In this document: positions 13,142 to 56,844 of the stretch, in pieces
How positions within the stretch are numbered: the stretch's first letter is position 1
How the letters are laid out: the number at the start of each line of letters is the position of its first letter
From: Wenyingzhuangia sp. 2_MG-2023
GTDB lineage: Bacteria; Bacteroidota; Bacteroidia; Flavobacteriales; Flavobacteriaceae
Assembly (NCBI RefSeq): GCF_030548295.1
Contig: NZ_JAUOSB010000001.1
Coordinates: 124,001-188,000 of the forward strand
DNA: 64,000 bases
Direction of reading: 5' to 3'
Made by a program: the position numbers and the translations under genes
The notes under the pieces: generated by a model
Told to the model about the DNA's origin: nothing
The model's input: only the letters and a program-made list of their open reading frames with translations
Database searches by the model: none

Positions 13142-13173
13142 CATATGTCTTTGAAAGTATTACATATGTCTTT
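13142..13173 (-). promoter_or_regulatory. 21-bp-spaced direct repeat upstream of the permease-mutarotase pair (site 1)
   Basis: CATATGTCTTT occurs at 13142-13152 and again, identical, at 13163-13173. The start-to-start distance is exactly 21 bp. No good -7 box is seen at the distance found in most other sites. It is the only one of the nine sites outside the polysaccharide locus proper and lies between two genes of one operon. Confidence 0.6.
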
Positions 13174-13214
13174 TTAGTACTTTATCTTCATAAACTACTA
13201 TTGATTCACTTAGA

Positions 13215-14165
13215 TCAACCTTTAATCTTTTCAATCACTGTAGTAATTTCATTAAAAATTGACTCTTCTAACTTTCCTTCTTCCCAAGCATTTAACAAAT
13301 CTATCATTTGTTCTTTTTTACTAGGTCCTACTACAACCCTATCAGCTTCTTTAGTAGAGAACACATATCTTAATGCCAATCTTGATAATGGAATATCGTG
13401 CTTTGTAGCAATCTTATTTATTTCAAGCGCTGTATCTACATCTAAATTAGTCACCCATTCGTTGTTTGGTCTTTCTTCATTGTATTGATCCAGTCGTCTA
13501 CCTAACAATCCCATGTGTAGTGCAGATGCAGCGTAGTATGCTATATTTTCTTTTTGAATTTGAGGAATGTCTCTTTCAAAACCAGATAAATTACAAGCAT
13601 CCATTTTTAAGAATCCAGAAAGCACATCAAAATTATCTTTGACCATATGTGGATAAAATGGCTCTGTTGGATTCCCTCCAATTCCTAACATACCTACTAC
13701 TCCTTCTTTTTTTAAACCATTCAAACAATCCATAATCTCATCCATTCTTTCTACAGGCACCAAATGTGGTTCGTGTAAAAACAACAAATCAATTTTATCC
13801 ACTCCAATTACCTCTAAACTTTCGTAAACGCTTTTTCGCATGGTTTCTGTTGAATAATCTACAACACAATCATCAGCTCTATCTGCTTTTAAACGTCCTA
13901 CTTTGGTACTTATAAATGGTTTTTCTCCAGTCCATTCTTTTAAAGTTTTCCCTAAAAACTCTTGAGATCTATTGTAAGAAGGTGCAGTATCAAAAACACG
14001 AACTCCGTTTTCTAAAGCATAAGTTAATGTTTCCACAGCATCTTTTTCTGCGATAGGTCTCCAAACACCTCCTAACCCAGAACAACCACAAACTAATCTA
14101 CTTTGGTTGTTAAAAAATTCACTTTTTGTATAATCTCCTTTTATGTAAGTTGGTTTTGTTTTCAT
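13215..14165 (-). CDS. Aldo/keto reductase, probable L-galactose (L-fucose) 1-dehydrogenase
   Basis: The protein has 316 residues and an aldo/keto reductase barrel. The catalytic tetrad is visible: Asp and Tyr in VFDTAPSYNRS (near residue 58), Lys in ISTKVGRL (near 87) and His in DLLFLHEPH (near 128). Members of this branch oxidise the anomeric carbon of L-fucose or L-galactose with NAD(P) to give the aldonolactone. The next gene is a lactonase of the matching family. Because no fuconate dehydratase is present and altronate enzymes are, L-galactose is the more likely physiological substrate. It lies 11 bp after the lactonase stop codon. Confidence 0.8.
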   Translation of the reverse strand: MKTKPTYIKGDYTKSEFFNNQSRLVCGCSGLGGVWRPIAEKDAVETLTYALENGVRVFDTAPSYNRSQEFLGKTLKEWTGEKPFISTKVGRLKADRADDCVVDYSTETMRKSVYESLEVIGVDKIDLLFLHEPHLVPVERMDEIMDCLNGLKKEGVVGMLGIGGNPTEPFYPHMVKDNFDVLSGFLKMDACNLSGFERDIPQIQKENIAYYAASALHMGLLGRRLDQYNEERPNNEWVTNLDVDTALEINKIATKHDIPLSRLALRYVFSTKEADRVVVGPSKKEQMIDLLNAWEEGKLEESIFNEITTVIEKIKG

Positions 14166-14176
14166 TTTTTATTCTT

Positions 14177-15004
14177 TTATAAATTGTAAAACTTTACAGC
14201 ATTTGATCCCATTATAGATTCTTGTTCATCTATGGTTAATGGAGCTATAAAATCGGTTGTTATTTTTCTTACTTTTTCATAATTACCGGCTACTAAACAT
14301 ACAGGCCAATCAGATCCAAATAAAATTCTATCAGCTCCAAAAACATTTAAAACCAATTGCATATAAGGCACCAATTCATGATAAGACCAAGTTTTGTAAT
14401 CTGCTTCAGTAATCATTCCAGACAGTTTACAATACACATTAGAGTAACTTGCTATTTCTTTCATTAGCAATGCCCAACCGTCATAAAAACCATCTTTAAT
14501 GTAGGGTTTTGCTATATGATCTATGACAAATTTGATGTTTGGAAACTTTTTCACAAACTCTAACACCGACCCTAATTGATGTGGAAACACCAAAATATCG
14601 TAGGTAAAATTGTATTGTTCTAGCTTAGCAATTCCGTTTAAAAAATCAGGTCTTAACAAAAAGTTAGGATCTGATTCTCCTTGAACTACATGACGAAATC
14701 CCTTTATCTTTTCAAACTGACTGTAGTGTTTCAAAACTTCATCAATATCAGCTCCTCTAAAATCTACCCAACCAACAATTCCTTTGATAAAATCGTTTTT
14801 AGTAGCTAAATCTAATAAGAAATCTGTTTCTGCCAATGTTTGGTCTGCTTGTACAGCTACACAGCCATCAATGTTGTTTTGTTGATAAACACTTTTTAAA
14901 TCTGAGGGCATAAAATCCTTTCGAATTACTGCCATCTCATCGTCTATCCAACTATGTTTTACGGGTTCGTATTTCCAAAAATGTTGATGTGAATCTATAT
15001 TCAT
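14177..15004 (-). CDS. Amidohydrolase-family lactonase, probable L-galactono-/L-fucono-lactonase
   Basis: The protein has 275 residues and belongs to the COG3618 branch of the amidohydrolases, which contains L-fuconolactonase and related sugar lactonases. It starts with the metal-binding MNIDSHQHFWKYEP. Later conserved sites are FVIDHIAKP and the catalytic aspartate in ILFGSDWPVC (near residue 230). It would open the lactone made by the adjacent aldose dehydrogenase to give L-galactonate, with L-fuconate as the alternative. It lies 10 bp after the tagaturonate reductase stop codon. Confidence 0.8.
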   Translation of the reverse strand: MNIDSHQHFWKYEPVKHSWIDDEMAVIRKDFMPSDLKSVYQQNNIDGCVAVQADQTLAETDFLLDLATKNDFIKGIVGWVDFRGADIDEVLKHYSQFEKIKGFRHVVQGESDPNFLLRPDFLNGIAKLEQYNFTYDILVFPHQLGSVLEFVKKFPNIKFVIDHIAKPYIKDGFYDGWALLMKEIASYSNVYCKLSGMITEADYKTWSYHELVPYMQLVLNVFGADRILFGSDWPVCLVAGNYEKVRKITTDFIAPLTIDEQESIMGSNAVKFYNL

Positions 15005-15014
15005 AACTACGTTT

Positions 15015-16466
15015 TTATAAGTTTTCCAGGCAATATTTCACCCCTTTATTTTCTACTTCTTGGATTCTTTCTGTTACAAAATCTACCAATCCGTTGTAGA
15101 TAGACAAATCATCTCCTACTATGTTTTTGTTTGCTAAAGTATGTGCTACCAAATCTTTTAATGTTTGATTTCCCTTATCTACTTTATCCCATTCCGTTTT
15201 AAAGAATTCCAATGCTACTGCATCATCATTTACAGCAATGGTTTCATTGTCAAAGCTTCCTTTGTAAAAACGAATCATACAAGCTAAAGAGAAAGCAATA
15301 CGTTTGGGAAAAGTTCCATTTAAAGTGGTGTATTCTCTAAAAGCAGGTAACAATCTGGCCTGAAATTTAGAGGTACTATTTAGAGATATTGCTAATAAAA
15401 AGTGCTTTAATGTTGGATTCTTAAAACGATCTATCACCGCATTGACAAACGCATCTACTTCACTTTCAGAAAAATTAGTCAACGTTGGTTTTATTTCTGA
15501 TGACAATACTTGCAATACATGATTGCTAACCAAAGCATCATCCATACTTTCTTTTACGGTTCTTAATCCTGATAAATATCCTACAGGAACCAATGAAGTA
15601 TGAGCTCCATTTAGAACTCTAACTTTCATCTCTCTATAATCAGACAAATCATCTACAAACTGAACGTTCAAATCTGTTTTGGCAAACGGCAATTCTTCTT
15701 GCACCAAAGCAGGCCCTTTAATTACCCAACTATGATAATCTTCACCTGCGACCAACAAATCATCATTAAAACCAATTTGCTCAGTAATAGCAGCTTTTCT
15801 AGCTTCTGGAAACCCAGATACAATTCTATCTACCAACGTGCTGCAAAAGTAATTATGATCTACAATCCATGCTGCAAACTCTTGACCTAAATCCCAAAGT
15901 TTTATGTATTCTAAAATAGTTTTTTGTAATTCTACACCATTATTTTCTATCAACTCACAAGGCAATAAAACACACCCCTTGTCTGCTGCTCCATTAAAAT
16001 GAGTAAATCTATGGTGCAGCCATAAGGTTAATTTTGCAGGGAATTCATGCGGAGGACAATCTGTTTGTTTATCTGTATTAGAAAATTTGATTCCCGCTTC
16101 GGTAGTATTAGACACTACAAAACGCATTTCCGGCTCTTCTGCCAAAGCCAAATATTCCGTCCATTGTGTATAAGGTTGAATAACTTTACTTACAGATTCT
16201 ACCAAAGTAACTTCTGAAACCAACTTTCCATTTCTAACTCCATCTAAAGCTACATGAAACAAGCCTTCTTGCTCTCTTAACTCTGTATAATCACCTCTTT
16301 TTGTAGGTTTTACTACAGCAACACTACCATTAAAATCTGTTGATTTGTTCAATACATCAAACATCCAATCACAAAAGGCTCTTAAAAAATTACCTCCTCC
16401 AAATTGCATTACTTTTACAGGATATTTGACTGGTTTATTAGCTGTTGTTCTATTTAATGAATTCAT
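15015..16466 (-). CDS. uxaB: Tagaturonate reductase (altronate oxidoreductase)
   Basis: This cytoplasmic NAD-dependent reductase of the mannitol dehydrogenase superfamily has 483 residues from the ATG at 16466; a longer frame would start with GTG. The Rossmann start VMQFGGGNFLRAFCDWMF is typical of UxaB. The C-terminal domain carries the catalytic segment RVLNGAHTSLVPVGYLSG with conserved asparagine and histidine. It reduces D-tagaturonate to D-altronate. In the classical galacturonate route tagaturonate comes from UxaC. No uxaC is present here, and a dehydrogenase that can make tagaturonate from L-galactonate begins the operon. Confidence 0.88.
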   Translation of the reverse strand: MNSLNRTTANKPVKYPVKVMQFGGGNFLRAFCDWMFDVLNKSTDFNGSVAVVKPTKRGDYTELREQEGLFHVALDGVRNGKLVSEVTLVESVSKVIQPYTQWTEYLALAEEPEMRFVVSNTTEAGIKFSNTDKQTDCPPHEFPAKLTLWLHHRFTHFNGAADKGCVLLPCELIENNGVELQKTILEYIKLWDLGQEFAAWIVDHNYFCSTLVDRIVSGFPEARKAAITEQIGFNDDLLVAGEDYHSWVIKGPALVQEELPFAKTDLNVQFVDDLSDYREMKVRVLNGAHTSLVPVGYLSGLRTVKESMDDALVSNHVLQVLSSEIKPTLTNFSESEVDAFVNAVIDRFKNPTLKHFLLAISLNSTSKFQARLLPAFREYTTLNGTFPKRIAFSLACMIRFYKGSFDNETIAVNDDAVALEFFKTEWDKVDKGNQTLKDLVAHTLANKNIVGDDLSIYNGLVDFVTERIQEVENKGVKYCLENL

Positions 16467-16590
16467 TTTTTTACTAAAATTGAGTAATGAGTACACTTCA
16501 CAAAAGTTTGTCTCATTATTTTTAACATAATTAATTAACTATCCATTCTAATACTGAGTCATCGTATGCCAATAACTCAGTATATTATAT

Positions 16591-18243
16591 TTACAGAGAC
16601 ACTCCTCTTTTCCAAGGAATAAAATCATTATTTCCGTGCAATACAGCTTTTGATGGAGTTTCACCACTAGCCACTCTAATTACGTGATCTAATATTTTTT
16701 CTCCCATGGTTTGAATAGTATCCTCTCCTGTAATAACCGTTCCTGCATTGATATCGATAATATCGACCATGCGTTCATATAAATTGGTGTTGCTAGACAT
16801 TTTTAATACGGGTGCTACAGGATTTCCTGTTGGAGTTCCCAACCCTGTAGTAAACACAACAATGTTACATCCAGAACCTACCAAACCTGTAGTAGACTCT
16901 ACATCATTCCCTGGTGTACATAACAAATTCAACCCTGGTTTGGTCACCTGTTCTGTATAATCTAAAACTTCAACCACTGGAGAAGTACCTCCTTTTTTAG
17001 CTGCTCCTGCAGATTTCATAGCATCTGTAATCAAACCATCTTTTATGTTACCTGGAGAAGGATTGTTTTCAAATCCAGACCCCACAGCAACTGCTGCTGC
17101 TGAATAAGCTCTCATAATATTGTAGAACTTTTTAGCATCGTGCTCTGTCACACACCTATTGATGATTTCTTGCTCAACTCCATTTAATTCAGGAAATTCT
17201 GATAATACTGGACTACCCCCCAAGGCTACCAATAAATCTGATGCATATCCTAAAGCAGGATTTGCAGAAATACCAGAAAATCCATCAGAGCCTCCACATT
17301 CTAAACCAAGAACCAACTTACTTAATGGTGCCGGTTGACGAGTTAGTTTGTTTGCCTCTGCCAAGCCTATAAATGTATGTTTTACGGCTTCTTCTATCAA
17401 AGCACGTTCACTAGCACTTTGCTGTTGTTCTAAATAATGAACTGGTTTGTCATTATTAGGGGCAATAGCATTGATAGCGTTTTGCAACATTTCTATTTGT
17501 GCATTCTGACATCCTAAACTAAACACAGTAGCACCTGCTACATTTGGATTGGAAATATAACCCGCTAATAATTTACACAAAGTTTCAGAATCTTGACGAA
17601 TACCTCCACAACCACCATCGTGCTTTAAGAACTTAATTCCATCTACATTTGGAAAGATTCTGTTTTTAGACATTTCTTCTTTAGTAGTAATGATGGGTGT
17701 ATTGAAAATTTCATCAGTACTCGCTCCAGATTTGTATTGTTGGATTAAAGCATCTGTATCTACTGCAAAATCTTTTTTGGTTTCGTATCCTAACTTTTCT
17801 GACAAAGCTCCTTCTAAAACATCAATATTTCTGTTTTCGCAAAACGTTAAAGGAATTACCAACCAATAGTTAGCAGTTCCAACTTTTCCGTCTTTTCTAT
17901 GAAAACCGTCAAAGGTTCTTCCTTCAAAATTAGAAATATCTGGAGCCGTCCAGGTAAATTTCTCTGCACTTTCTTTGTATGCTGCCGATGCGTGTTTTAC
18001 GTTTTCAATAGTAATTGCGCATCCCGCTGGAATTGGTAATACTGCTTTTCCTATCAATACTCCGTACATAAAAATTTCATCTCCAATAACGAAATCGTAC
18101 AAAGAAAATTTGTGTTTTTGTTTGATGTCTTCTTTCAACATCAAACTCTCTCCTGCTACTTCTACAAAAGTGTCTTTTGCCAATGCTTGAATGGCAACAA
18201 TTACATTATCTTTTGGATCTATTTGTGCGTACTGAGTTGACAT
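16591..18243 (-). CDS. uxaA: Altronate dehydratase
   Basis: The protein has 550 residues and the two-part build of full-length UxaA. An N-terminal SAF-like domain (residues about 1-100) is joined to the catalytic domain. Catalytic-domain features include GFHRKDGKVGTANYW, KHDGGCGGIRQDSETLC, LGLECGGSDGFSGI and VVFTTGLGTPTGNPVAPV, with conserved cysteines consistent with metal binding. It dehydrates D-altronate to 2-keto-3-deoxy-D-gluconate. It lies 4 bp after the aldolase gene, so the two are translated from one message. A 124-bp gap separates it from uxaB. Confidence 0.9.
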   Translation of the reverse strand: MSTQYAQIDPKDNVIVAIQALAKDTFVEVAGESLMLKEDIKQKHKFSLYDFVIGDEIFMYGVLIGKAVLPIPAGCAITIENVKHASAAYKESAEKFTWTAPDISNFEGRTFDGFHRKDGKVGTANYWLVIPLTFCENRNIDVLEGALSEKLGYETKKDFAVDTDALIQQYKSGASTDEIFNTPIITTKEEMSKNRIFPNVDGIKFLKHDGGCGGIRQDSETLCKLLAGYISNPNVAGATVFSLGCQNAQIEMLQNAINAIAPNNDKPVHYLEQQQSASERALIEEAVKHTFIGLAEANKLTRQPAPLSKLVLGLECGGSDGFSGISANPALGYASDLLVALGGSPVLSEFPELNGVEQEIINRCVTEHDAKKFYNIMRAYSAAAVAVGSGFENNPSPGNIKDGLITDAMKSAGAAKKGGTSPVVEVLDYTEQVTKPGLNLLCTPGNDVESTTGLVGSGCNIVVFTTGLGTPTGNPVAPVLKMSSNTNLYERMVDIIDINAGTVITGEDTIQTMGEKILDHVIRVASGETPSKAVLHGNNDFIPWKRGVSL

Positions 18244-18247
18244 ATAT

Positions 18248-18916
18248 TTACCCTCTTACTTTTTTTATTGTTTCTAAAGCTTTTGCTACTGTTTTTTCTA
18301 AACCTGCAAAGTCTTGATCTGCTAAAATTTGTTTGCTAATTAATTGAGACCCCATTCCAACACAAACCACACCAGCATCAAACCAGCCTTTTAAGTTATC
18401 TTCTTCTGTTGTAACTCCACCTGTAGGCATGATAGATGTCCATGGTTGAGGCCCTACAATTCCTTTTACAAAATTTGGTCCGTATAAATTTCCTGGAAAT
18501 AATTTTACAATTTCACATCCTAGTTCCTCTGCTCTTGCAATTTCTGTCAACGTTCCACAACCTGGATTCCAAGCTACTTTACGTCTGTTACAAGCAATCG
18601 CAATATCTTCTCTAAACACAGGTGTTACTATAAAATTAGCACCCAAAGACATGTACAATGAAGCAGCTGCAGCATCTGTAATAGATCCTACACCCATAAT
18701 CATCCCTGGTAATTCTGCAATGGCATATTTTGTCAATGCAGCAAAAACTTCGTGAGCAAAATCTCCTCTAGCGGTAAACTCTAACAGACGAGCTCCACCA
18801 TCGTAACATGCTTTTAATACTTTTTTTCCTAATTCAATATCTGGATGGTAAAACAAAGGAACCATTCCTGTTTCTTTCATCACTTGTGCTACTTCTATTC
18901 TTGAAAACTGTGCCAT
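18248..18916 (-). CDS. eda: KDPG aldolase (2-keto-3-deoxy-6-phosphogluconate aldolase)
   Basis: A class I aldolase of 222 residues in the KDPG/KHG aldolase family. It cleaves KDPG to pyruvate and glyceraldehyde 3-phosphate. The Schiff-base lysine lies in CEIVKLFPGNLYGP (near residue 138). The glutamate/arginine site is in LLEFTARGDFA, and PTGGV forms the phosphate-binding loop. It comes directly before uxaA and follows the kinase gene, as expected for a dedicated lower pathway operon. A separate copy for other pathways may exist elsewhere in the genome. Confidence 0.92.
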   Translation of the reverse strand: MAQFSRIEVAQVMKETGMVPLFYHPDIELGKKVLKACYDGGARLLEFTARGDFAHEVFAALTKYAIAELPGMIMGVGSITDAAAASLYMSLGANFIVTPVFREDIAIACNRRKVAWNPGCGTLTEIARAEELGCEIVKLFPGNLYGPNFVKGIVGPQPWTSIMPTGGVTTEEDNLKGWFDAGVVCVGMGSQLISKQILADQDFAGLEKTVAKALETIKKVRG

Positions 18917-19009
18917 TTTTTTAATCTTTATTCGTTTAACTTTTTAATTTGTTTGCCTAATCTATTGTTTAATTGTTTGTTTTGCATTTAACAATCAAAC
19001 CACATCACC

Positions 19010-20044
19010 TTACCTGTCTACCAATGCAGATCCGTCACTTTCCATAAAATCGATGACTTCTTGTTTAGAAGCTCTGTTTACATCTCCAAAAATGGTGTGC
19101 TTAATTACACAAGCAGCAGTTGCAAAAGCTACTGCTTTTTGCAAATCGTTTTTATAATCTATCAGACCATATAACAATCCTCCCATAAAAGCATCTCCTG
19201 TACCTACTCTATCTACTACTGGTGAAACTTCATTAATTCTTGCTCTGTATAACTGATTGTTTTTGTACAATAGACCACCAATACGTTGGTGAGATGCATT
19301 TACGGAATTTCTAAACGTCATTCCGATAGTGTGTACATTTGGCAACAACTCTATAATTTTGTCAAACTGTTTTTTTACTTCTTCATCTTTGCTATAATCT
19401 GGGTTGATTTTAGCTTTTCCTAGCATAAACATTGCTGTATCAACATCCGCTAAAATAACATTGCTGTATTTCAACAAAGCTGGCATCACCTCTTTCGGTT
19501 CTTTACCATATTTCCAAAGTTTACTTCTATAGTTTAAATCTGTAGAAATAGTCAAACCTCTTTCTGCTGCTGCTTTTACAGCTTCTAAGCAAGTGTCTGC
19601 TGCATTTTGAGACAATGCAGGAGTAATACCACTCCAATGAAACCAAGTTGCTCCTTTAAAAATTGTATCCCAATCAAATTGACCTGGTTGCACTTCTGAC
19701 ATAGCTGAATTGGCTCTATCGTATACAACAGCACTGTTTCTTCCAGAAGCTCCGTGTTCTAAAAAATACAATCCTAATCGGCTTCCTTGTCTTAAAATAT
19801 ACTTGGCTCCTACATTTCTACTTCTAATGCTTTGCAGCACACAATCTCCAATAGCATTGTTGGGAACTGCTGAAATAAATTGAGCTCTAATTCCGTAATT
19901 TGCTAAAGAAGCTGCTACGTTAAATTCTCCACCTCCATAGATAACTTCTAAAGAATTGGCTTGACTAAACCTTAGGTGATTGGGAGGAGACAATCTTCCC
20001 AAAATCTCACCAAAAGTGATGACTTTATGCTTTGTTGAGAACAT
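19010..20044 (-). CDS. kdgK: 2-keto-3-deoxygluconate kinase (PfkB family)
   Basis: The protein has 344 residues and the ribokinase/PfkB fold. It starts KVITFGEILGRLSPPNHLRF, has a glycine-rich YGGGEFNVAASLANYG substrate loop, and ends with the catalytic motif DRVGTGDAFMGGLLYG (near residue 283) containing the base aspartate. It phosphorylates KDG to KDPG in the cytoplasm. It is the second gene of the operon, 31 bp after the zinc dehydrogenase. Position between altronate dehydratase and KDPG aldolase functions supports KDG as substrate over other PfkB sugars. Confidence 0.9.
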   Translation of the reverse strand: MFSTKHKVITFGEILGRLSPPNHLRFSQANSLEVIYGGGEFNVAASLANYGIRAQFISAVPNNAIGDCVLQSIRSRNVGAKYILRQGSRLGLYFLEHGASGRNSAVVYDRANSAMSEVQPGQFDWDTIFKGATWFHWSGITPALSQNAADTCLEAVKAAAERGLTISTDLNYRSKLWKYGKEPKEVMPALLKYSNVILADVDTAMFMLGKAKINPDYSKDEEVKKQFDKIIELLPNVHTIGMTFRNSVNASHQRIGGLLYKNNQLYRARINEVSPVVDRVGTGDAFMGGLLYGLIDYKNDLQKAVAFATAACVIKHTIFGDVNRASKQEVIDFMESDGSALVDR

Positions 20045-20075
20045 AGTAATTGTTAATTTTTGGTTTGGTTAATTT

Positions 20076-21086
20076 CTATATAAAATCTACAGTTGCTTTG
20101 ATAACTCCAGTAGCTGGTTTTGTCCAACTATCAAAATTTTCAATCATTTCTGTAAAAGGAACATTGTGTGTAATAAATGAGCTTGTTGGGAATTGGTCTA
20201 ACACACTAATTACATGTTCAAAATCTTCGGTAGTTGCATTTCTACTACACATAATAGTAGTTTCCTTTGCATGAATTTTTGGATGTGCAAAAGTCAAATC
20301 ACCCTTAGACAATCCAACCAATACATAACGTCCTCCATGAGACATATAATCTGGTCCTATTTCTAATGCACCTTTAAATCCAGTAGCATCAAACACAGCA
20401 GTTGCCATGTCTCCATTTGTAATTTCAGCAATTTTCTCAACAGGATTGTTGTTTACATTAATTACATAATCTGCTCCAATTTCTTCTTTTGTATATTTTA
20501 AACGATCATCATTTACATCCAAAACAATAACTTTAGCACCTGCAATTTGTGCTAATTTCACCATTCCTATTCCGATAGGTCCACAACCCACAACAACAAC
20601 TGTTTCATCTTTCTGAACATTTGCTCTACGAATGGCATGTGCACCAATTGCCAAAGGTTCTACAATAGCCATTTGATCATCTGACAACTCATTTGCTGGC
20701 AACAATAAATCTTGACGAACTGTGATAAACTCTTGCATACCTCCATCAGAATGTACACCTAGCACACTAATATTTGTACAACAATTTGTTTTTCCATTTC
20801 TACAAGCAATACACTTTCCACAACTAACGTATGGCATAACCACTACATTGTCTCCTGCTTTCAATCCTCTTTCATTTTCTCCAATCTCTACAATTTCAGA
20901 AGCCAATTCGTGCCCTAAAATTCTTGGATACGTGAAAAATGCTTGGTTTCCAGAATAAGCATGCAAATCTGTACCACAAATCCCTACTTTTTTCACTCTT
21001 AACAAAGCTTCATTTTCTTTACGAACAGGAGCTTCTTTTTCCTTTAATAAAAACTTTCCAGGTTCTTCACAAACTATGTATTTCAT
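20076..21086 (-). CDS. Zinc-dependent alcohol dehydrogenase, probable L-galactonate 5-dehydrogenase
   Basis: A medium-chain dehydrogenase of 336 residues. Catalytic zinc ligands are in KVGICGTDLHAYSG and ILGHELASEIVEIG. Structural zinc cysteines are in CGKCIACRNGKTNCC, and VVVGCGPIGIGMVKLAQ is the NAD-binding loop. The family contains sorbitol, threonine and L-galactonate dehydrogenases. In this operon, L-galactonate oxidation to D-tagaturonate is the step that links the lactonase to tagaturonate reductase, so that role is inferred. It is the first gene of the operon. A LacI-type operator lies 25 bp upstream of the start codon. Confidence 0.78.
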   Translation of the reverse strand: MKYIVCEEPGKFLLKEKEAPVRKENEALLRVKKVGICGTDLHAYSGNQAFFTYPRILGHELASEIVEIGENERGLKAGDNVVVMPYVSCGKCIACRNGKTNCCTNISVLGVHSDGGMQEFITVRQDLLLPANELSDDQMAIVEPLAIGAHAIRRANVQKDETVVVVGCGPIGIGMVKLAQIAGAKVIVLDVNDDRLKYTKEEIGADYVINVNNNPVEKIAEITNGDMATAVFDATGFKGALEIGPDYMSHGGRYVLVGLSKGDLTFAHPKIHAKETTIMCSRNATTEDFEHVISVLDQFPTSSFITHNVPFTEMIENFDSWTKPATGVIKATVDFI

Positions 21087-23950: not shown

Positions 23951-24016
23951 CAAAGATCATTTTTTAATACCTTTTATAACAAAACAAAAGGTTCATTCAC
24001 TAAAACAAATGATTTA
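23951..24016 (-). promoter_or_regulatory. Promoter with 21-bp direct repeat upstream of GH29 (site 2)
   Basis: Half-sites are CAAAAG at 23985-23990 and CAAATG at 24006-24011, 21 bp apart. CAAAGATC at 23951-23958 is, read on the minus strand, GATCTTTG, one mismatch from the -7 consensus. It lies 26 bp from the repeat and about 60 bp before the start codon. Confidence 0.6.
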
Positions 24017-24060: not shown

Positions 24061-24768
24061 TCAAACACCTGTGGTAAATTTAAAAACTGATGAAATGGAA
24101 ACATTTCCTGTATTGTCTTTTGAATGTACTTTCCAATAATAGGTAGTATTGGGACTTAGAGACACATTTTCTAAAATAGATTTATCTAGAATTGTATGTA
24201 ATGTTGATGGATTACTGTCAGTATCTAAATACACCTCATAAGAAACAATATCATTATCCAAATCATTAGAACTCCAAGACAATGTTATAGTTTTAGTTGC
24301 GGTAACAATTCCCATAGATGGTGCTACCAAAGTTGCTGGATACGGAACATGACTTTCGGTTCCTTCTGCAGCGTTGTAAAATATCCAAATTTCACTTTCT
24401 GAGGTTTTAGATGTTGTGTCTGATTTAGAAACCACATGCCACTTAAAAGAAATTCCTCTTGACAAATTCACCGATGCTGTAGTACTACTACTCACTATTT
24501 GTTTCACACTATTATCTTCCAAACTTTCTATCACCACAATGTATTGATCTGTGTTTTTTGAAGCCTCCCAAGAAAAAGTAATTGTGCTTAGCAATTCTGA
24601 CAACACACTTCCCTGATTGCAAGGCTCATCTTTTAGAGGAGACACCAATATTGCAGCTGTAGGTATTGCTACAACTTTTTCTACTTCTTTAGAACTATCA
24701 CCTCCACAAGCAACCATTAAAAAAAGTATAACGGCAACAGCTACTATTTTTGTGTATTTTGACTTCAT
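24061..24768 (-). CDS. Lipoprotein with two fibronectin type III-like domains
   Basis: The protein has 235 residues from the ATG at 24768, which opens a clear lipoprotein signal ending LFLMVACGGDSSK; the longer frame is rejected. Two beta-sandwich modules follow, each with the fibronectin type III pattern: ITFSWEASKNTDQYIVVIE, then TLSWSSNDLDNDIVSYEVYL with NTTYYWKVHSKDNTGNVS. No catalytic motif is seen. It is the last gene of the GH2-propeller operon and is probably a surface or periplasmic accessory or glycan-binding protein. The function is not established. Confidence 0.7.
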   Translation of the reverse strand: MKSKYTKIVAVAVILFLMVACGGDSSKEVEKVVAIPTAAILVSPLKDEPCNQGSVLSELLSTITFSWEASKNTDQYIVVIESLEDNSVKQIVSSSTTASVNLSRGISFKWHVVSKSDTTSKTSESEIWIFYNAAEGTESHVPYPATLVAPSMGIVTATKTITLSWSSNDLDNDIVSYEVYLDTDSNPSTLHTILDKSILENVSLSPNTTYYWKVHSKDNTGNVSISSVFKFTTGV

Positions 24769-24804
24769 AATTTTCCTTTTTAATATACAACTCAACCTTG
24801 AAAA

Positions 24805-28059: not shown

Positions 28060-28076
28060 GTTATTGTTCTTTAAAA

Positions 28077-32802: not shown

Positions 32803-32846
32803 CTATTATTTTTTTTAGTTAAACAATCCAAAAACAGAAATTAGTC

Positions 32847-34730: not shown

Positions 34731-34779
34731 CTTTAAAGTTTTTTTATGTTTTCTTGTATTGTACATCTTCCTCTAATTG

Positions 34780-39788: not shown

Positions 39789-39817
39789 ATTCTTTTTTTA
39801 ATCTTGATTTATTATTT

Positions 39818-41350: not shown

Positions 41351-41358
41351 TGTTTTGA

Positions 41359-42894: not shown

Positions 42895-42895
42895 G

Positions 42896-46672: not shown

Positions 46673-46775
46673 TTTTGATAAGTTTAGTTTTCTAATTATT
46701 TTCAACCACAACCTATTACAAAATAGTAGTTGTACGAAAAGCTAAATAAGTAAATAAGGCAGCGAATGAACATAT

Positions 46776-46810
46776 CATATGTAAAATATTAGAATACATA
46801 TGTGTTATTC
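46776..46810 (-). promoter_or_regulatory. 21-bp direct repeat upstream of the second propeller operon (site 5)
   Basis: CATATG occurs at 46776-46781 and 46797-46802, exactly 21 bp apart, and both copies are followed by GT. No good -7 box is seen at the distance found in most other sites. The start codon is about 100 bp downstream. Confidence 0.58.
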
Positions 46811-49427: not shown

Positions 49428-49495
49428 CAAAATTAAGAGATAAGTTTATCTCTATTCAGACAAATGATTTTGTTTGTAGCAGATATGTGTTTTTT
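49428..49495 (-). promoter_or_regulatory. Promoter with 21-bp direct repeat upstream of the second GH2 (site 6)
   Basis: Half-sites are CAAATG at 49461-49466 and GATATG at 49482-49487, 21 bp apart. CAAAATTA at 49428-49435 is TAATTTTG on the minus strand, a perfect -7 box 25 bp from the repeat and 36 bp before the start codon. An inverted repeat, GCAGATAT (49479-49486) with ATATCTGC (49501-49508), overlaps the distal half-site. Confidence 0.68.
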
Positions 49496-49598: not shown

Positions 49599-51071
49599 TT
49601 ACTCAATAACTAATAATTTCTTTTTAGCGGCTGCTTGCTGTTCTTTTTCGTACATTTTTTTATACAAATCCAATCTTTTCTTTTGATATTCTCCAGATTG
49701 CAAATACCTATTTGATATATTTCCTTGATTCCAATCGTTCCAAAGCTTTGCCATTTGAGCTCTTTTTTTAGTGTTTTTGGCCACAATATCTTTAGCTTCA
49801 AAAGGATCTTTTTTCATGTCAAACAATTCAGGTTTAGCTCCTTTTTTGTTCAGTTTTAAAAACTTTGTTTTTTCTGTTCTAATTGCCCAAGCCATTCCAT
49901 CTTGCATTCTCCAATACAAAGCATTGTGTGGAGAACCTTTTTGCTTTCCTGTTAAATAAGGAATAAGATTTTTTCCTTCTAAAGCATTTCCAGTAGTATC
50001 TCCATTTCCTACAGCAACAGCCGTAGCAGCAATATCTAAAGCAGAAACCAATCCATCAAACTCTCCTACATTTAAATTTCCTTTAGGCCAATGTAAAATA
50101 AATGGTACATGACATCCACCCTCATACATACTTCCTTTTCCTTCTCTAAAATTTCCGTTGTTTGCAAAGGTTTCTCCATTTTTTCTTGGCCCTCCATTAT
50201 CTGACAAGAAAAAAATCAATGTATTGTCATACTTACCAGATTTTTTAAGAGACTATAAAACCAGCCCTATTCCTTGATCCATTTCATCAATCATAGCGGC
50301 ATAAACTCTTCTCTTTTTATCTTTAATATGATTGTACTTTACTATAGTTTCTTTAGGAGCTTCTAAAGGTAAATGAGGAGCATTGTAAGCCAAATACAAA
50401 CAAAAGGGCTTGTCTGAACTCTGTATAAATTTAGTAGCATCTTTACTTAATGCTGTGGTTAAATATTCATTAAACTCTCCTGCCTGGTTGTTTCTAGTTA
50501 AAGGCCAATAGCTCCCTTCATTAGCACTGTAATGAGGTTTGTTATTTTTAGGATTGATTAATGGCATATGCGTTTTTACGTTTTCTGGAAAATAAGAGTG
50601 TCCTCCTGATAAAAATCCATAGAAATAATCAAAACCTCTATTATTAGGATGAAAGGTATCCGATCCTCCTAAATGCCATTTTCCTATTACCCCTGTGGTA
50701 TATCCTTTCTTTTGTAATCTTTTTGCAAAAGTTTGTTCTGATAACGGCAAACCGTTATACATATCAAAAGGAGAGTTGGTTAGGTTAATTTCTAATCCAA
50801 ACCTTGCCTGATAGCGACCTGTTATTAATCCTGCTCTAGAAGGTCCACAGTACGGATGGGTAACGTATCCGTTCTTAAAAACAACTCCGTTATTTGCTAA
50901 TTTATCTAAGTTGGGTGTAAAAATTTCTTTAGACCCTGTAAAACCTACATCTCCATACCCTAAATCATCCGCTAGAATTACCAACACGTTTGGCTTTTCG
51001 TTTTGCGCATTTACTGCTAAACTTGACATTGCTAAGAACAACATCAATCCTATTTTTTTACTAAAAATCAT
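49599..51071 (-). pseudogene. Type I sulfatase interrupted by an in-frame amber stop
   Basis: The reading frame is continuous over about 490 codons except for one TAG at 50253-50255, near codon 273. Reading through, GLVL is followed by SLKKSGKYDNTLIFFLSDNGG, so a single change (for example GAG to TAG) explains the break; no frameshift is present. The upstream part has a signal peptide ending SLAVNAQ, metal-site VILADDLGYGD and formylglycine cysteine C75 in CGPSRAGLITG. The downstream part has SDNGGPRKNG and the C-terminal domain. As it stands the product would be truncated and lack part of the active site. A sequencing error is possible. Confidence 0.85.
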
Positions 51072-51088: not shown

Positions 51089-51152
51089 CAAAAATAACGT
51101 ACTTGTAAAAAATTAAATAACTGTATGATTTACAATGCAACACATATGATTT
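51089..51152 (-). promoter_or_regulatory. Promoter with 21-bp direct repeat upstream of the interrupted sulfatase (site 7)
   Basis: Half-sites are TGTATG at 51122-51127 and CATATG at 51143-51148, 21 bp apart, both followed by ATTT. CAAAAATA at 51089-51096 is TATTTTTG on the minus strand, a perfect -7 box 25 bp from the repeat. The start codon is 18 bp further on. Confidence 0.68.
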
Positions 51153-51164
51153 TTTTTAGGCTGC

Positions 51165-52721
51165 TTAATTGACCTTTGGAAAATACCTCATAGAAGAATA
51201 ACGTTTGTAGCTATCAAAAACTTCTTTATTTGGCCCCACAACTCTAGGATCTTTTGTTTTAATGAGTTCTTGCATTAATTCTTGTTTTAAAGCTATCTCT
51301 ACATGCTGATATTCTTTTGTTTCTGATAAATTAGTTAAGCAAGAGCTATCTTTTTCTAGGTTGTACAATTCAAACTCTGGACGTTTGTCACAAGAAATAT
51401 CAAAATAGTAACTCACCTCATCAGCCTCTTTGTTTTTAAGGATATAACTTTTTGTGGGAGAACCATCAATATCTGCAAATACATTTTTAATAAGTTTTTT
51501 ATCTTCTTTAGATTTGTAGCTAACAGGAGCACCCGCAGGCCATCTTTCTGGACTAATGTTCCAAATCAATAAATACTCTTTTTTACGGATACTACGTTGC
51601 GGATACCCAAGGTTATTATACCTAGCAGAAGTATGTCTTTCTCTTCCAGAAAACACAGCATTATTTGTATTTAATTCCTTTTCTCCTTTTAAGACCTTTA
51701 AAAAACTACTTCCCGTAATAGATTGCATTTTAGTAGGTGTTGTTTGGGTTATTTCTAAAATAGTAGGAGCTAAATCTACAGCTCCTAAAGGAGTTTTTAT
51801 GGTTTTATTTTTCTGAAATTCTTTAGGATAACTTACTACGAAAGGTACATGTACTCCATAATTGTAACAATTAGCTTTGGCTCGAGGAAAAGGCATTCCG
51901 TTGTCTGCTGTTACAATCACAATGGTATTTTCTAATTCTCCTTTACTTTTTAAATAGGTTAGCATTCTTTGTAACTGAGCATCAAACCATTCAATTTCTA
52001 CAGCATAATCTAACAAATCTCCTCTTACTACTCCATTGTCTGGTAAAAAAGCGGGTACGGTTACATCTTTTAACTGTTTATTAGTTCTTTTCCAAGAACC
52101 CTTTTCATATCCTCTATGTGCTTCGTGTGCTCCGTACCAAAAAAAGAAAGGTTGATGTTCTTTTTTGTCCTTCATAAAAATTTTAAAATTCTCAAAGTAA
52201 TTTTTAGAACTTATTTTAGTTGTAGTTCGTTCATCATGTTCTTTACTGTAATGAATTTTATTGTATTCAGGACCTGCAGCATTTTCTTTTCGCCAAAGAG
52301 TTTCTTCTGATTTGTTTTTTGCATATCGAAATGGAGACACTCCTTTTCCTGTCATTCCTACTTTATATCCATTGGCTTGTAATTCATCAGCCAATGGCAC
52401 ATATTTTTTCATCCAAGAAGAACCGTGTTGTCCAGATTGTTCATTTTGCCAAGGATACCTACCTGTAACAATAGAACCTCTAGAAGGTGCACAACCTGGA
52501 GATGCCACATAAAAATTAGAAAAACAGATTCCTTCTTTGGCTATTTTATCAAAAGTTGGAGTGTTTACAAATTTACTACCTCCAAAACTCATATGTAAAT
52601 AAGATACATCGTCACAAATGGCGAATAATATATTTGGTCTTTTTTTACTTTTTTGAGCCACTACTGTAAAACTTAAAAGTATTACAAGTCCTGCAATCAT
52701 TAACTTTCTATAAAAAATCAT
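51165..52721 (-). CDS. Type I (formylglycine) sulfatase
   Basis: The protein has 518 residues with a signal peptide ending FTVVAQ. Metal-site residues appear as ILFAICDDVSYLHMSFGG. The formylglycine cysteine is C77 in CAPSRGSIVTGRYPWQ, the most canonical motif in the locus. TADNGMPFPRAKANCY supplies the later metal ligands. The CDDVS start and PRAKANCYNYG recall the N-sulfoglucosamine sulfohydrolase-like subgroup, but many marine members act on other sulfated sugars. It is 13 bp downstream of the GH28 gene and co-transcribed with it. Confidence 0.9.
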   Translation of the reverse strand: MIFYRKLMIAGLVILLSFTVVAQKSKKRPNILFAICDDVSYLHMSFGGSKFVNTPTFDKIAKEGICFSNFYVASPGCAPSRGSIVTGRYPWQNEQSGQHGSSWMKKYVPLADELQANGYKVGMTGKGVSPFRYAKNKSEETLWRKENAAGPEYNKIHYSKEHDERTTTKISSKNYFENFKIFMKDKKEHQPFFFWYGAHEAHRGYEKGSWKRTNKQLKDVTVPAFLPDNGVVRGDLLDYAVEIEWFDAQLQRMLTYLKSKGELENTIVIVTADNGMPFPRAKANCYNYGVHVPFVVSYPKEFQKNKTIKTPLGAVDLAPTILEITQTTPTKMQSITGSSFLKVLKGEKELNTNNAVFSGRERHTSARYNNLGYPQRSIRKKEYLLIWNISPERWPAGAPVSYKSKEDKKLIKNVFADIDGSPTKSYILKNKEADEVSYYFDISCDKRPEFELYNLEKDSSCLTNLSETKEYQHVEIALKQELMQELIKTKDPRVVGPNKEVFDSYKRYSSMRYFPKVN

Positions 52722-52734
52722 TATCTAAAAAGAA

Positions 52735-54159
52735 TTAGTTATTTACATCTATCATCACAACTTCTTCTCTCTTATCTTCAGACTTTAAGTTAAACACGAT
52801 GTTTTTGGTTTTTAAATTCTCAATATGCCTTGCATACAAACCATAGGAAGGTGTAATACCCAACATCGTAAACTCAGGGTACTGAGTTTCGTTTTCTGGA
52901 ACTACTGTTTTTGCATGTTCTGCTGTTCCTCCTCCAGGTAAAGTAATATTGATATTCTCTAAGCTAATTTTTCCTAATTTATGATTTGGTGTCCCTGAAA
53001 AAAACAAACCTGTTGTTGCTGCTAATCTACAATCTTTAAGCTCTCTAACCGTAGCATCAATATTTCTAATAACTACATTGGTAATGCTTCCTGTAGGTTT
53101 TCTATCTGCATTTCTGTACACCAATCTACGTTCGCACAAGCGAATAAAAATAGGCATCTCTACATTCTCCATTTTAATATTCTCTATCAATATATTTTCT
53201 GCATTAGCTCCATCGGCACTTAAAATTTTAATTCCACCACCTCTAGTATCGTGTACAAAACAATCTCTAACGGTAATGTTTTTAAAATCTCCCATAGACT
53301 CTGTTCCAAATTTAATAGCACCCCATTCACTCTTAATTTTACAATCATACACTTCTACATCTGTTGTCGGTTTAGGGCTGGTAGATTTAAAACAAATAGC
53401 ATCATCTCCTGAATCTATATCACAATTTTTAATAACTCCGTTTGTACTTGAATCAATATCAATAGCATCATTATTTCTGTTAGCATGGCTGTAAATAGAG
53501 ATTCCATCTACCACAAAATTATTACATTCTAAAAAATGTAAGGTCCAAGCTGCAGGTTGACGTAAATGAATATCTTGCAACTTTACATTTTCTGATCTTA
53601 CCATTCTTACCAAAAAAGGTCTGTTAGACAAACGAATGTTATTATTTACATAATTATTGGTCTTAGATACCAAGCCAGTTAAATCAGGCTTTTCCTGTTC
53701 TATTCCTAATCTTTTTAAAGTTTCTTTTACTTTGTTTGGAGCTAACATTTTTCCGTGACCATCAATAGTCCCTTTTCCTGTAATAGATACATTCTTTACA
53801 TCAATAGCACCAATAAAACATTGTCCTCTAAATTGCCCTGTAGCATCTACAAAAGGCTCTACAATTGGATAATCATTAGGATTGATACTTCCTAACAAAG
53901 TTGTATTTTCTGTGATTTTTAAATCAACATTGTCTTTTAACAATAAAGTTCCCGACACGAATACATCTCCATCAATTAATACCGTTCCTCCACCTGCTTT
54001 GGCACATTCATCAATTGTTTTTTGAATGGCAGTTGTATTAACTGTTGCATGATCATCTACTGCTCCATAATCTTTTACATTCCAACTTTTTTGTTGTTGA
54101 CATGATGAAATTATTACGGATAAAACAATCATCAATCCTTTTAGTATTCTCTGTATCAT
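52735..54159 (-). CDS. GH28-like right-handed beta-helix glycosidase, lipoprotein
   Basis: The protein has 474 residues with a lipoprotein signal ending VIISSCQQQ. The polygalacturonase-type helix begins WNVKDYGAVDDHATVNTTAI. Catalytic aspartates are recognisable as NNDAIDIDSS and DSGDDAICFKS (near residues 230-255). The usual GHG histidine motif is not seen; the corresponding stretch reads WGAIKFGTES, followed by RGGGIKILS in place of RIK. GH28 enzymes cleave alpha-linked uronic acids or related sugars by inversion. The altered site may mean an unusual substrate. It heads an operon with a sulfatase. Confidence 0.8.
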   Translation of the reverse strand: MIQRILKGLMIVLSVIISSCQQQKSWNVKDYGAVDDHATVNTTAIQKTIDECAKAGGGTVLIDGDVFVSGTLLLKDNVDLKITENTTLLGSINPNDYPIVEPFVDATGQFRGQCFIGAIDVKNVSITGKGTIDGHGKMLAPNKVKETLKRLGIEQEKPDLTGLVSKTNNYVNNNIRLSNRPFLVRMVRSENVKLQDIHLRQPAAWTLHFLECNNFVVDGISIYSHANRNNDAIDIDSSTNGVIKNCDIDSGDDAICFKSTSPKPTTDVEVYDCKIKSEWGAIKFGTESMGDFKNITVRDCFVHDTRGGGIKILSADGANAENILIENIKMENVEMPIFIRLCERRLVYRNADRKPTGSITNVVIRNIDATVRELKDCRLAATTGLFFSGTPNHKLGKISLENINITLPGGGTAEHAKTVVPENETQYPEFTMLGITPSYGLYARHIENLKTKNIVFNLKSEDKREEVVMIDVNN

Positions 54160-54190: not shown

Positions 54191-54202
54191 GTGTGCGCAC
54201 AC
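54191..54202. repeat. GC-rich perfect palindrome at the predicted GH28 transcription start
   Basis: GTGTGCGCACAC is a perfect 12-bp palindrome in otherwise AT-rich sequence. It lies directly downstream of the minus-strand -7 box at 54202-54209, so it would sit at or just after the transcription start. Confidence 0.5.
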
Positions 54203-54270
54203 AAAAATATTCAAAAAGAAGAATTATAAGTCACACGTATGTTTTTAAATATACTACTAATGGTTTATTT
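54202..54270 (-). promoter_or_regulatory. Promoter with 21-bp direct repeat upstream of the GH28-sulfatase operon (site 8)
   Basis: Half-sites are CGTATG at 54236-54241 and CTAATG at 54257-54262, 21 bp apart, both followed by a T-rich tract. CAAAAATA at 54202-54209 is TATTTTTG on the minus strand, a perfect -7 box 26 bp from the repeat and 43 bp before the start codon. Confidence 0.66.
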
Positions 54271-54290
54271 TATTTATACAAATCCCGAAT

Positions 54291-56714
54291 TTATTGAGCT
54301 TTCAACTTGGAATACCCAATTAACAAGTCCCCTTTTATTGTTTTTCCTAATAATTTTCCAACAAAATTATTTTCTGTAATTCCGTTTCCTAAGCCATCAA
54401 ATTCAACAATTAAATCTTTTCCTTTTTTCTTTGTTTTGATCACTTTACATCCTCTTCCAAAATCTACCTCTTCGGTAGCTCCAAAGCGTAATGAATTTAC
54501 ATTGATATCTATTTGAGCATTGAATCCTTTTTCTGAACGGATTAGAATTTTAATGTTTTTAGTGGTACTATCAACTTGTGTTTTATTTAACATTGTAATT
54601 CTTTTTGGAATCACTAACGGGATTACAATGTTTTTAGAATTGTGATTGTCTTTTGCCAAATCATCTTCTTTAGGCACATCTATCACTGCTAAAGATAAAT
54701 GTGTAGCTCTACCAAACTGGTCTTGTAACACATGTGGTCTTTCTAATTTGTACCAATGCGTTCTAGTACCATCTACATAAGAAGTATTATCGGGTGTGTA
54801 GGCTGTACCTGAATTAAACTTCCAATGAATTCCATCTGGAGATCTTAAATAAATAGCTCTATAATCTAAAAAAGCATTAATCATCATATGATATTGAACC
54901 TCATCTTTCCACAAAACAGGATCTTCATAATTAGAGTTTCTATATTTTTCTGGAATAATTTTATTTCCTCGTACCCCCACAGTTAAAGCTTTATAAGGTC
55001 CTAATGGATTTTTATCCTGACTAACCATCATTCCACCTCCTTTAGTTACAAATAAAAATCGTCCATCATATAATTGAACTCCTGATAAATTTCTATAATA
55101 TCTATAATTTAAATTTGGCTTTTCTAAAGAAGTTGACAAATCAACCTCCATAATTCCTAATCTTTTCCAAGGACCACTCATGGACTTAGAAGTAAACAAA
55201 TTAGCTTCCCAATTAATTAAAGAATACATCATGTAAGTACCATCATTCAACAAAATAATGTCTGGATTATGTCCTTTTCCATCAGCAAAAGAATACACCA
55301 ACTCTTTTTTAACTTTATAGGGTCCTGTAGGTTGATCTGCAACTACATGAGCTACTGTAGAATTTGGCCACTCCCAATGTCCTTTAATGGCATTGGCAGG
55401 CCAACGCGTAATATTCATATGATATTTTCCATCTTTATCGTACACAGGTCTTCCTCCCCAGTATGTCCAATCTACCGCTTCTATACCATTATCAGGATCT
55501 CTAGGCAACACTCCTTTGGCTCCCCATAGATTAGAACTTAAAGATTTATGAATAGGCATTGGTACTATTAAATCGCTAAAAGATGTTCCTAAAACAGTTT
55601 TTACACGACATTGAATAACTTTAGATGCTTTGCTTCTATTCCCACTATAATCATAAGCATAAACCTGATAAGTATTGTCTGTTTCTTTTAATGGGGTGAA
55701 ATCTAAATAATGATCCTTTTTTAAGTCATGAGCAATTTCTCTCATGTGATTTCCATTAGCATCTCCTCTAAAAAGAGAATAAGAAGCAATGTCTTTATCT
55801 GTATTTTTATTCCAAAACAATTTAATTTCAGTATCAAAAATTTCTGATTTTAAACCTAGTGGAGCATCAGGAGCAATGGTATCTTTTTTTGCTATTTTAA
55901 CTTTGTTAGAACCTATTGATTCTACTCCTTTTTGAATATATGTTACTACATAATTATAAGGAAAACCTGTAATTAAACGGGTATCTACAAAAGAATTATT
56001 TTGAGTTTCTCCAATTTGCTGATAAGCTACTTTGTTTATAGGACTTCTATAAATTTTATAAATAGCATTTTTAAAAGTATTCCACTTTAACGCTACCCCA
56101 TTTTTCACCAAATTAGCTTTTAATACTAGTACTTTGTTTTTTGTATCGGCAATTTTAATATTTACATAGTGTAAATAGACCTTTACACCTTGTTCTGAAT
56201 AAAATGTTGCTCTTACAAAGGGTAAACCAGCTTTAGCATCTTCTTTACTAACCACATACGTTCCTTTAAAATGTTCAATGGTTTTGTCTGATCCTATTAG
56301 TTTTACTTTTTCTGCTAAAATTCTTTCAGTATCACCAAAAACAAGACTTAAAGAAATAGTCCCTTTGCTTACATACTCTAAATCAGCTCCAAATTCCCAT
56401 TCAATAATATCTCCTCTTTTAGCTTGTTGATATTTTGGGTTTGTGTTTAAAATTTTAGATTCCGCCACTCCTAGTTCATTCATACTGAACAACGAACCAA
56501 AATGCAATCCCATTTTTTCTTTTCCTTTTAAAACTTTTGTTGTCCAAAAAGGAGATTGTTTGGCTTGTCTCCAATACCCTCGTACGGTGGTAAAGTCTCC
56601 GTCGTTTACATTGGCATAAGGAGCATTGTCTCCTAGTAATACAATTTGTGCATTTGCTACAGGAATAAATACTGTACAAAAAAGAACGGCTAAAAATGTT
56701 TTAAATTTAATCAC
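54291..56714 (-). CDS. Multidomain GH43-like five-bladed propeller protein with fibronectin-like domains
   Basis: The protein has 807 residues; the start is GTG at 56714, with a signal peptide ending PVANAQ. Residues about 25-190 form a beta-sandwich. Two fibronectin-like domains follow (about 190-370), with FPYNVVTYIQKGVESIGSNK and KLFWNKNTDKDIASYSLFRG. The remainder is a GH43/GH32-like propeller with WTYWGGRPVYDKDGKYHMN, KGHNPDIILLNDGTYMMYS and NYEDPVLWKDEVQYHM. The propeller core parallels the protein at 62380-63492. Such folds cleave terminal sugars in GH43, GH117 and neighbours, but the exact family is not certain. It is transcribed alone. Confidence 0.75.
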   Translation of the reverse strand: MIKFKTFLAVLFCTVFIPVANAQIVLLGDNAPYANVNDGDFTTVRGYWRQAKQSPFWTTKVLKGKEKMGLHFGSLFSMNELGVAESKILNTNPKYQQAKRGDIIEWEFGADLEYVSKGTISLSLVFGDTERILAEKVKLIGSDKTIEHFKGTYVVSKEDAKAGLPFVRATFYSEQGVKVYLHYVNIKIADTKNKVLVLKANLVKNGVALKWNTFKNAIYKIYRSPINKVAYQQIGETQNNSFVDTRLITGFPYNYVVTYIQKGVESIGSNKVKIAKKDTIAPDAPLGLKSEIFDTEIKLFWNKNTDKDIASYSLFRGDANGNHMREIAHDLKKDHYLDFTPLKETDNTYQVYAYDYSGNRSKASKVIQCRVKTVLGTSFSDLIVPMPIHKSLSSNLWGAKGVLPRDPDNGIEAVDWTYWGGRPVYDKDGKYHMNITRWPANAIKGHWEWPNSTVAHVVADQPTGPYKVKKELVYSFADGKGHNPDIILLNDGTYMMYSLINWEANLFTSKSMSGPWKRLGIMEVDLSTSLEKPNLNYRYYRNLSGVQLYDGRFLFVTKGGGMMVSQDKNPLGPYKALTVGVRGNKIIPEKYRNSNYEDPVLWKDEVQYHMMINAFLDYRAIYLRSPDGIHWKFNSGTAYTPDNTSYVDGTRTHWYKLERPHVLQDQFGRATHLSLAVIDVPKEDDLAKDNHNSKNIVIPLVIPKRITMLNKTQVDSTTKNIKILIRSEKGFNAQIDINVNSLRFGATEEVDFGRGCKVIKTKKKGKDLIVEFDGLGNGITENNFVGKLLGKTIKGDLLIGYSKLKAQ

Positions 56715-56723
56715 AACTATAAT

Positions 56724-56764
56724 TTAAAAAACTTCAGTTTGCTAAAAATCAACAAACTGAAGTT
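56724..56764 (-). terminator. Hairpin with T-run immediately upstream of the GH43-like gene
   Basis: AACTTCAGTTTG (56730-56741) pairs perfectly with CAAACTGAAGTT (56753-56764), followed on the minus strand by TTTTTT. It lies between the predicted site 9 promoter and the GTG start, so it would fall within the leader of that gene. Confidence 0.65.
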
Positions 56765-56778
56765 AAATTTGATAGTCC

Positions 56779-56844
56779 TAAAACTATATAGATACAATTG
56801 TTTTTATTGTTCTATATGATTTTAAATGTAGTTGATATGATTAA
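56779..56844 (-). promoter_or_regulatory. Promoter with 21-bp direct repeat upstream of the GH43-like gene (site 9)
   Basis: Half-sites are TATATG at 56813-56818 and GATATG at 56834-56839, 21 bp apart, both followed by ATT. TAAAACTA at 56779-56786 gives TAGTTTTA on the minus strand, one mismatch from the -7 consensus, 26 bp from the repeat. Confidence 0.6.

Follow-up and report, generated by a model that had tools for sequence, protein, structure and literature searches.

Introduction

The systems closest to the one described here are the operators of hybrid two-component systems (HTCSs) in Bacteroides. The part of Ravcheev et al. (2013, PMC3878776) on which we draw predicts that 16 HTCSs of B. 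thetaiotaomicron bind direct repeats averaging 21 bp, and proposes a dimer whose monomers lie two turns apart. Here we analyse a direct repeat with half-sites exactly 21 bp apart that precedes nine transcription units in a 64,000-nucleotide window of Wenyingzhuangia sp. 2_MG-2023 (G000:C1:124001-188000, within a 3.98-Mb genome; positions given without a contig are those of this window). Our analysis suggests that the repeat is the operator of one particular HTCS, called HTCS2 below. The own-locus region that we examined spans 144 kb.

In architecture the present repeat closely resembles the Bacteroides HTCS operators as described in that part of the paper (PMC3878776): there are two conserved direct-repeat sites about 21 bp apart, they lie upstream of operons of polysaccharide utilization loci (PULs), including susC, and the HTCS gene is co-localised, the motif here being kept with HTCS2 and its two 67% homologs. 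It differs in that it belongs to another bacterial class and that the passages on these operators describe no -7 phasing; the comparison is one of architecture. The SusR-type operators of the same source (PMC3878776, in the part used) are likewise direct repeats for a PUL activator, with 67 or 77 bp between sites where we find 21, and a SusR-type operator was rejected on this spacing (de novo spacings searched, 15-30). The original prediction, made from the letters of the window, reported no known motif for this set. As regards the sequence this stands within the literature searched, while as regards the architecture it does not, given the 2013 prediction for Bacteroides HTCSs (PMC3878776). 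The half-site, a link to a flavobacterial HTCS and a fixed -7 phasing were not found in the literature searched, most subscription papers lying outside that search. The comparison suggests that the architecture is known in prediction and that the present repeat is a further example of it, with its own half-site letters and a likely regulator.

An older parallel is the araBAD promoter of E. coli, where the AraC half-sites I1 and I2 form a 21-bp direct repeat just upstream of the core promoter, for activation. The present element shares the direct orientation, the 21-bp spacing and the place just upstream of the core promoter; it differs in sequence, in its core promoter and in having a membrane HTCS as the candidate regulator rather than a soluble arabinose sensor.

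Nine paired half-sites

An exact 21-bp paired half-site is present at all nine coordinates listed in the original prediction. Read in the gene direction the half-site is AAANNCATWTGT, with a near-invariant CAT, and all nine downstream genes lie on the minus strand. TG closes 17 of the 18 half-sites, as had been claimed, the exception being CAAAAG at 23985. We scored sites with a position weight matrix (PWM) trained on the nine window sites, and give in brackets, after the extent of the gene or operon, the full-matrix score in bits followed by the leave-one-out score.

The leftmost pair, at 13142-13168 on the minus strand like all the others, stands before an MFS transporter gene (11746-13104; 25.4, 17.5) and has a counterpart in the congener G006 at C11:113061. 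Next come pairs at 23985-24011, before an alpha-L-fucosidase gene (22351-23892; 24.4, 16.8), at 30617-30643, before an operon encoding a glycoside hydrolase of family GH2 and a BNR/sortilin-type protein of the type IX secretion system (T9SS) (24061-30551; 27.7, 22.3), and at 38002-38028, before the susC-susD operon (30742-37935; 26.8, 19.3), whose SusC was assigned by TIGR04056. The pair at 46776-46802 precedes an operon for a T9SS BNR protein, two sulfatases and a fucosidase (38226-46711; 23.3, 16.7), and that at 49461-49487 a second GH2 gene (46930-49392; 26.1, 19.1). The last three lie at 51122-51148, before a split sulfatase gene (open reading frames 50253-51071 and 49599-50219; 28.0, 23.5), at 54236-54262, before a GH28 and sulfatase operon (51165-54159; 26.3, 17.9), and at 56813-56839, before the gene of an 807-aa protein (54291-56714; 22.5, 15.7). 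The split sulfatase gene (49599-51071) has thus kept a strong paired site. Its two open reading frames match one intact 490-aa relative in G006, over 272 aa at the N-terminus (98%) and 206 aa at the C-terminus (96%), and represent either a broken gene or a sequencing error.

Further sites lie beyond the window. On the right flank there are strong ones at window-equivalent 72002 (22.2 bits; 23.4 in the other reading direction) and 88158 (21.2 bits), and a weaker one at 81649 (16.8 bits) that is directed at no near gene. Four distant sites in the same genome (C34:29905, C77:3879, C77:40712 and C110:193489; combined score 24.7-34.2) precede two T9SS-tail proteins, a sulfatase and a GH43 gene, and may extend the regulon.

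The spacing emerges de novo as well. We applied expectation-maximization (EM) to 21 upstream regions of window-equivalent 19001-94000, a set independent of the earlier selection and a range outside which the 13142 site falls. Spacing 21 gave a log-likelihood of 94.9, and the best of the 15 other spacings between 15 and 30 was 71.8, at spacing 23; five first-order resamples at spacings 20-22 gave 33-45. With the leave-one-out PWM, 8-15 positions in the 144 kb (both strands) score at least as high as each site, that site and the other true ones being counted among them. The full matrix, which was trained on these nine, has 9 matches of at least 20 bits in the window and none in 20 dinucleotide shuffles taken together; at lower cut-offs the figures are 10 against 1 (17 bits) and 11 against 9 (15 bits). 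Over the whole genome a refined pattern with at most 2 mismatches has 38 matches against 11 for its backward control.

When 20 gene starts of the window were scored, the nine with sites reached 22.5-28.0 bits (they are the training set) and the eleven others at most 4.5. The claim that a single activator serves the whole polysaccharide locus is therefore too broad, since the fucose operon, the uronate-type operons and the AraC1, AraC2, LacI1 and HTCS1 genes have no site.

Promoter geometry

The TAnnTTTG consensus of the -7 box, and its confirmation in Flavobacterium johnsoniae, are set out in the part of PMC7366714 used here. A box with at least 5/6 matches to it begins 25 or 26 bp past the second half-site in seven of the nine window sites, in agreement with the original prediction; measured from the C of the first half-site, these seven standard promoters have their box at +52 or +53. 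All on the minus strand, the boxes with 6/6 matches lie at 49428-49435 and 51089-51096 (both +52) and at 54202-54209 (+53), and those with 5/6 at 23951-23958, 30583-30590, 37968-37975 and 56779-56786 (all +53). Since the matrix leaves the promoter out, the -7 box is an independent check.

The same phasing is seen in relatives. TTTG stands exactly at +57 from the first half-site C in 14 of the 23 sites of the congeners G002 and G006 and in 8 of the 17 sites of other, non-training HTCS2-like loci; at any offset of 32-53 or 61-99 it occurs at most once in either group. Over 52 sites of at least 17 bits, a set that takes in the training sites and a single HTCS1-locus site, the best TAnnTTTG begins at +53 in 33; allowing +52 to +54 raises this to 37.

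In Class II-type activator promoters the proximal activator site lies at a set distance from the core promoter. Here too the proximal half-site is set at a fixed distance from the core promoter: it lies about 30 bp before TTTG and so would fall near -40 from the predicted start if the box is centred on -7; in such promoters the proximal site touches the -35-equivalent region, here -33.

Which regulator binds the repeat

Two HTCSs flank the region, with a mutual identity of 31%. The HTCS1 gene (C1:120128-124267, 1380 aa) starts at window position 267, its 5' end occupying 1-267 on the minus strand. The HTCS2 gene (G000:C1:212305-216522, plus strand, 1406 aa) lies about 24 kb right of the window, adjoining a second lacI gene, and stands behind the rightmost site found in the 144 kb. 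Its domains are a Reg_prop propeller, Y_Y_Y, HisKA, HATPase, a receiver and an AraC-type helix-turn-helix (HTH). The original prediction had posited one activator with an AraC-type domain, whose direct-repeat half-sites lie two turns of the helix apart and keep a set distance to the -7 box, and this our analysis supports as likely. Its candidates, namely the sensor encoded at 1-267 and both AraC proteins of the window, are not supported; the genome comparison, with sites beside HTCS2 relatives and none of at least 20 bits around HTCS1 relatives, leads us to favour HTCS2, and we predict with good confidence that the repeat is its operator.

When 99 genomes were searched for the pattern with no regulator in view, several of the matches adjoined HTCS2 relatives. 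Around the two 67% homologs, the sites of at least 17 bits number 11 in 140 kb of G002 C3 and 12 in 100 kb of G006 C11. De novo EM, applied to 63 upstream regions from the two loci, returned AAATCATATGT at spacing 21 with a log-likelihood of 194, none of nine other spacings exceeding 98. Protein similarity served to choose 14 further HTCS2-like loci (560 kb; 14 of the 15 listed), in which the window-trained PWM finds 10 sites of at least 20 bits, one of them 20.0 as rounded. The comparison set of 838,637 bp, which comprises HTCS1-related neighbourhoods and other own-genome stretches and counts one Flavicella stretch twice, holds a single such site, on the C34 stretch of the own genome that was fetched because of that site.

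The genes behind the relatives' sites point the same way. Six of the ten scanned are SusC (in G004, G065, G008 C12, G007, G002 and G006), and these six start 86-92 bp behind sites of 17.3-29.6 bits; in G002 and G006 the distances are 90 bp (18.6 bits) and 92 bp (19.4 bits). The HTCS2 gene itself has a site of 21.2 bits in its promoter, with TTTG at +57. The promoter of the G006 HTCS2 has a site of 24.4 bits, but no TTTG at +35 to +94.

HTCS1, which the original prediction had put forward, is the HTCS at the left edge of the region and has the right domains, yet its relatives' loci led us to reject it, and we consider it very unlikely that it binds the repeat. We examined the neighbourhoods of HTCS1 relatives: 18 loci with 50-65% identity, a further two that are more distant, and a stretch of 100 kb in each of G004 and G008. 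In these neighbourhoods the window-trained PWM finds no site of at least 20 bits. What they carry is another 21-bp repeat, GATTTGAGCAA, obtained by de novo EM from 154 upstream regions with a log-likelihood of 217 at spacing 21; nine other spacings between 17 and 26 reached no more than 120, and three resamples gave 64-70. The corresponding HTCS1-type matrix has 40 matches in the relatives' loci (its training loci, G004 included), two overlapping pairs among them. In 21 of the 40 the offset of TTTG from the first G is +57, no other offset between 40 and 84 occurring more than twice. In the own genome the promoter of HTCS1 scores only 0.9 bits with the HTCS2-type matrix, while a strong HTCS1-type site (27.2 bits) stands at C1:119331, left of HTCS1. 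As a control we ran the HTCS1-type matrix on HTCS2-group loci. It has 12 matches of at least 16 bits in the 800 kb of the 16 such loci that lie beyond the own locus, with 7 more in the 144-kb own region, and is in this respect less clean than the HTCS2 matrix. Finally, the motif is present in both congeners without an HTCS1 match at E<=1e-200, neither in G006 nor in G002, where 10 of 73 first-look candidates were scored.

AraC-family proteins often use direct repeats, and two stand-alone members, AraC1 (4910-5836, plus strand) and AraC2 (9066-9929, plus strand), are encoded near the sites. G006, which has sites, keeps both (96% and 94%) and so offers no evidence against either. G002 does: it has 11 sites but neither an HTCS1 match at E<=1e-200 nor an AraC1 match at E<=1e-30, and its AraC2 homologs are 42% or weaker. 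Conversely, the 100-kb stretches of G004 C1 and G008 C8 have no site of at least 20 bits despite HTCS1 and AraC1, and in G008 despite AraC2 also. We judge neither protein to be the cognate regulator, both having been rejected on G002, and regard a stand-alone AraC activator as highly improbable. The AraC1 relative of G008, a genome of the same family (G008:C8:167757-168659), has an in-frame TAA.

A repressor operator, of LacI type or another, deserves mention because CATATG is itself palindromic and because the loci of G002, G006, G065 and G008 C1 contain relatives of LacI1 (64-97%). The flanking A tract, however, makes the half-site directional, the fetched loci of G004 and G007 have sites without a LacI1 match, and a position upstream of the -7 box suits an activator, so that we give this explanation hardly any weight.

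The distribution over genomes favours HTCS2: of 98 relatives, 9 encode an HTCS2-like protein and have on average 4.3 pattern matches, and the 89 others have 0.6 (P=8e-6). Restricted to the same family, the means are 4.3 (9 genomes) and 0.86 (50 genomes; P=1.5e-4). These nominal values overstate the case, since congener sites are related by descent. Several observations weigh against HTCS2 as the regulator. The backward control is also higher with an HTCS2-like protein (a mean of 0.67 per genome, and 0.22 in those lacking one), the 89 genomes without such a protein hold 53 pattern matches (backward control 20), and G007 has an HTCS2-like protein but no pattern match in the 99-genome search. One 19.0-bit match does lie in an HTCS1 locus, G008 C8, and the HTCS2 of G002 has only a weak site upstream (16.4 bits). 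As to geometry, two of the nine window promoters (13142 and 46776) lack a -7 box at the standard place, the best in the searched span being 4/6 at +69 and 5/6 at +58 respectively, and TTTG is not at +57 in 9 of the 23 G002 and G006 sites and in 9 of the 17 sites of other loci. At about 50% identity, moreover, 6 of the 14 further HTCS2-like loci have a site by combined score and 8 (49-53% identity) do not, the combined-score matrix itself being trained partly on HTCS2-like loci. De novo EM in six of these eight siteless loci gives no 21-bp repeat (71.6 at spacing 21, 79.4 at the best spacing, 19, and 52-54 in resamples), and the HTH helices of the siteless loci, that on own-genome C110 included, are much like those of HTCS2. 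It follows that HTH similarity alone does not predict the motif and that paralogs could share sites; the HTH comparison was accordingly set aside as uninformative for motif presence. The siteless paralogs may act on distant targets; alternatively, features beyond these helices contribute to specificity.

This brings in a less probable arrangement that nevertheless deserves some weight, in which several HTCS2-like paralogs share the motif and the nine promoters integrate more than one sensor. The C110 paralog (51%) is identical to HTCS2 over SRSNLYLKLKEITG, taken for a recognition helix; sites occur on the C34 and C77 stretches, where tblastn gives no HTCS match at E<=1e-10 in what was fetched; and joint motifs for paired paralogs were proposed by Ravcheev et al. 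in the part of their paper used here (PMC3878776). The 40-kb neighbourhood of C110 has, on the other hand, no site of at least 15 bits, and its relatives in G002 C1 and G006 C8 have none by combined score. In that neighbourhood (G000:C110:340001-380000) the first HTH helix of the paralog is also the same as in HTCS2.

Proposed mechanism and wider meaning

How could HTCS2 act from such an operator? We propose that its periplasmic propeller would sense an oligosaccharide of the substrate, that phosphorylation would then free the two AraC-type domains of an HTCS2 dimer, and that each of these would occupy one half-site, both on the same face of the helix. The bound dimer could contact RNA polymerase at the -7 promoter, whose box begins about 26 bp, or two and a half turns, after the second half-site. 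Since the HTCS2 promoter carries a site, a positive autoregulatory loop is likely on sequence grounds. For the Bacteroides HTCSs BT4124 and BT4663, gel shifts have been used to study how DNA binding depends on phosphorylation, as the part of PMC11253607 used here reports.

More generally, we suggest that Bacteroidota HTCSs may activate from one rigid grammar, in which a half-site specific to each regulator recurs after exactly 21 bp and holds a locked position relative to the -7 box; we regard the case for this generalisation as evenly balanced. Two unlike motifs, AAANNCATWTGT for HTCS2 and GATTTGAGCAA for the HTCS1 relatives, already fit the 21-bp grammar, and in both TTTG prefers one offset. 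If the grammar is true, sequence alone would suffice to assign each of the many HTCSs its regulon, and specificity would change only in the half-site letters. Bacteroidota polysaccharide loci are many, and their regulators and operators are mostly unassigned, while here a candidate regulator, a half-site, a regulon and a promoter geometry emerge together. A rule for reading promoters thereby becomes testable, leading from a 21-bp repeat at a set -7 distance to the half-site and from there to the HTCS.

Genes of the locus

The genes from 22351 rightward form a PUL for the use of a sulfated polysaccharide, with SusC, SusD, fucosidases, many sulfatases, GH2, GH28, GH16 and T9SS-tailed BNR/sortilin-type proteins. 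Three proteins of the locus, encoded at 30742-32802 (686 aa), 54291-56714 (807 aa) and 59679-60593 (304 aa), have no Pfam match at E<=1e-4, and only the first has an NCBIfam match, to a repeat domain. The left part of the window holds fucose and uronate-type catabolic operons together with AraC1, AraC2 and LacI1. The uronate-type cytosolic catabolic operons (13215-21086), which have no repeat, adjoin a lacI gene that is kept in the loci of G002, G006, G065 and G008 C1, and are possibly a separate LacI regulon.

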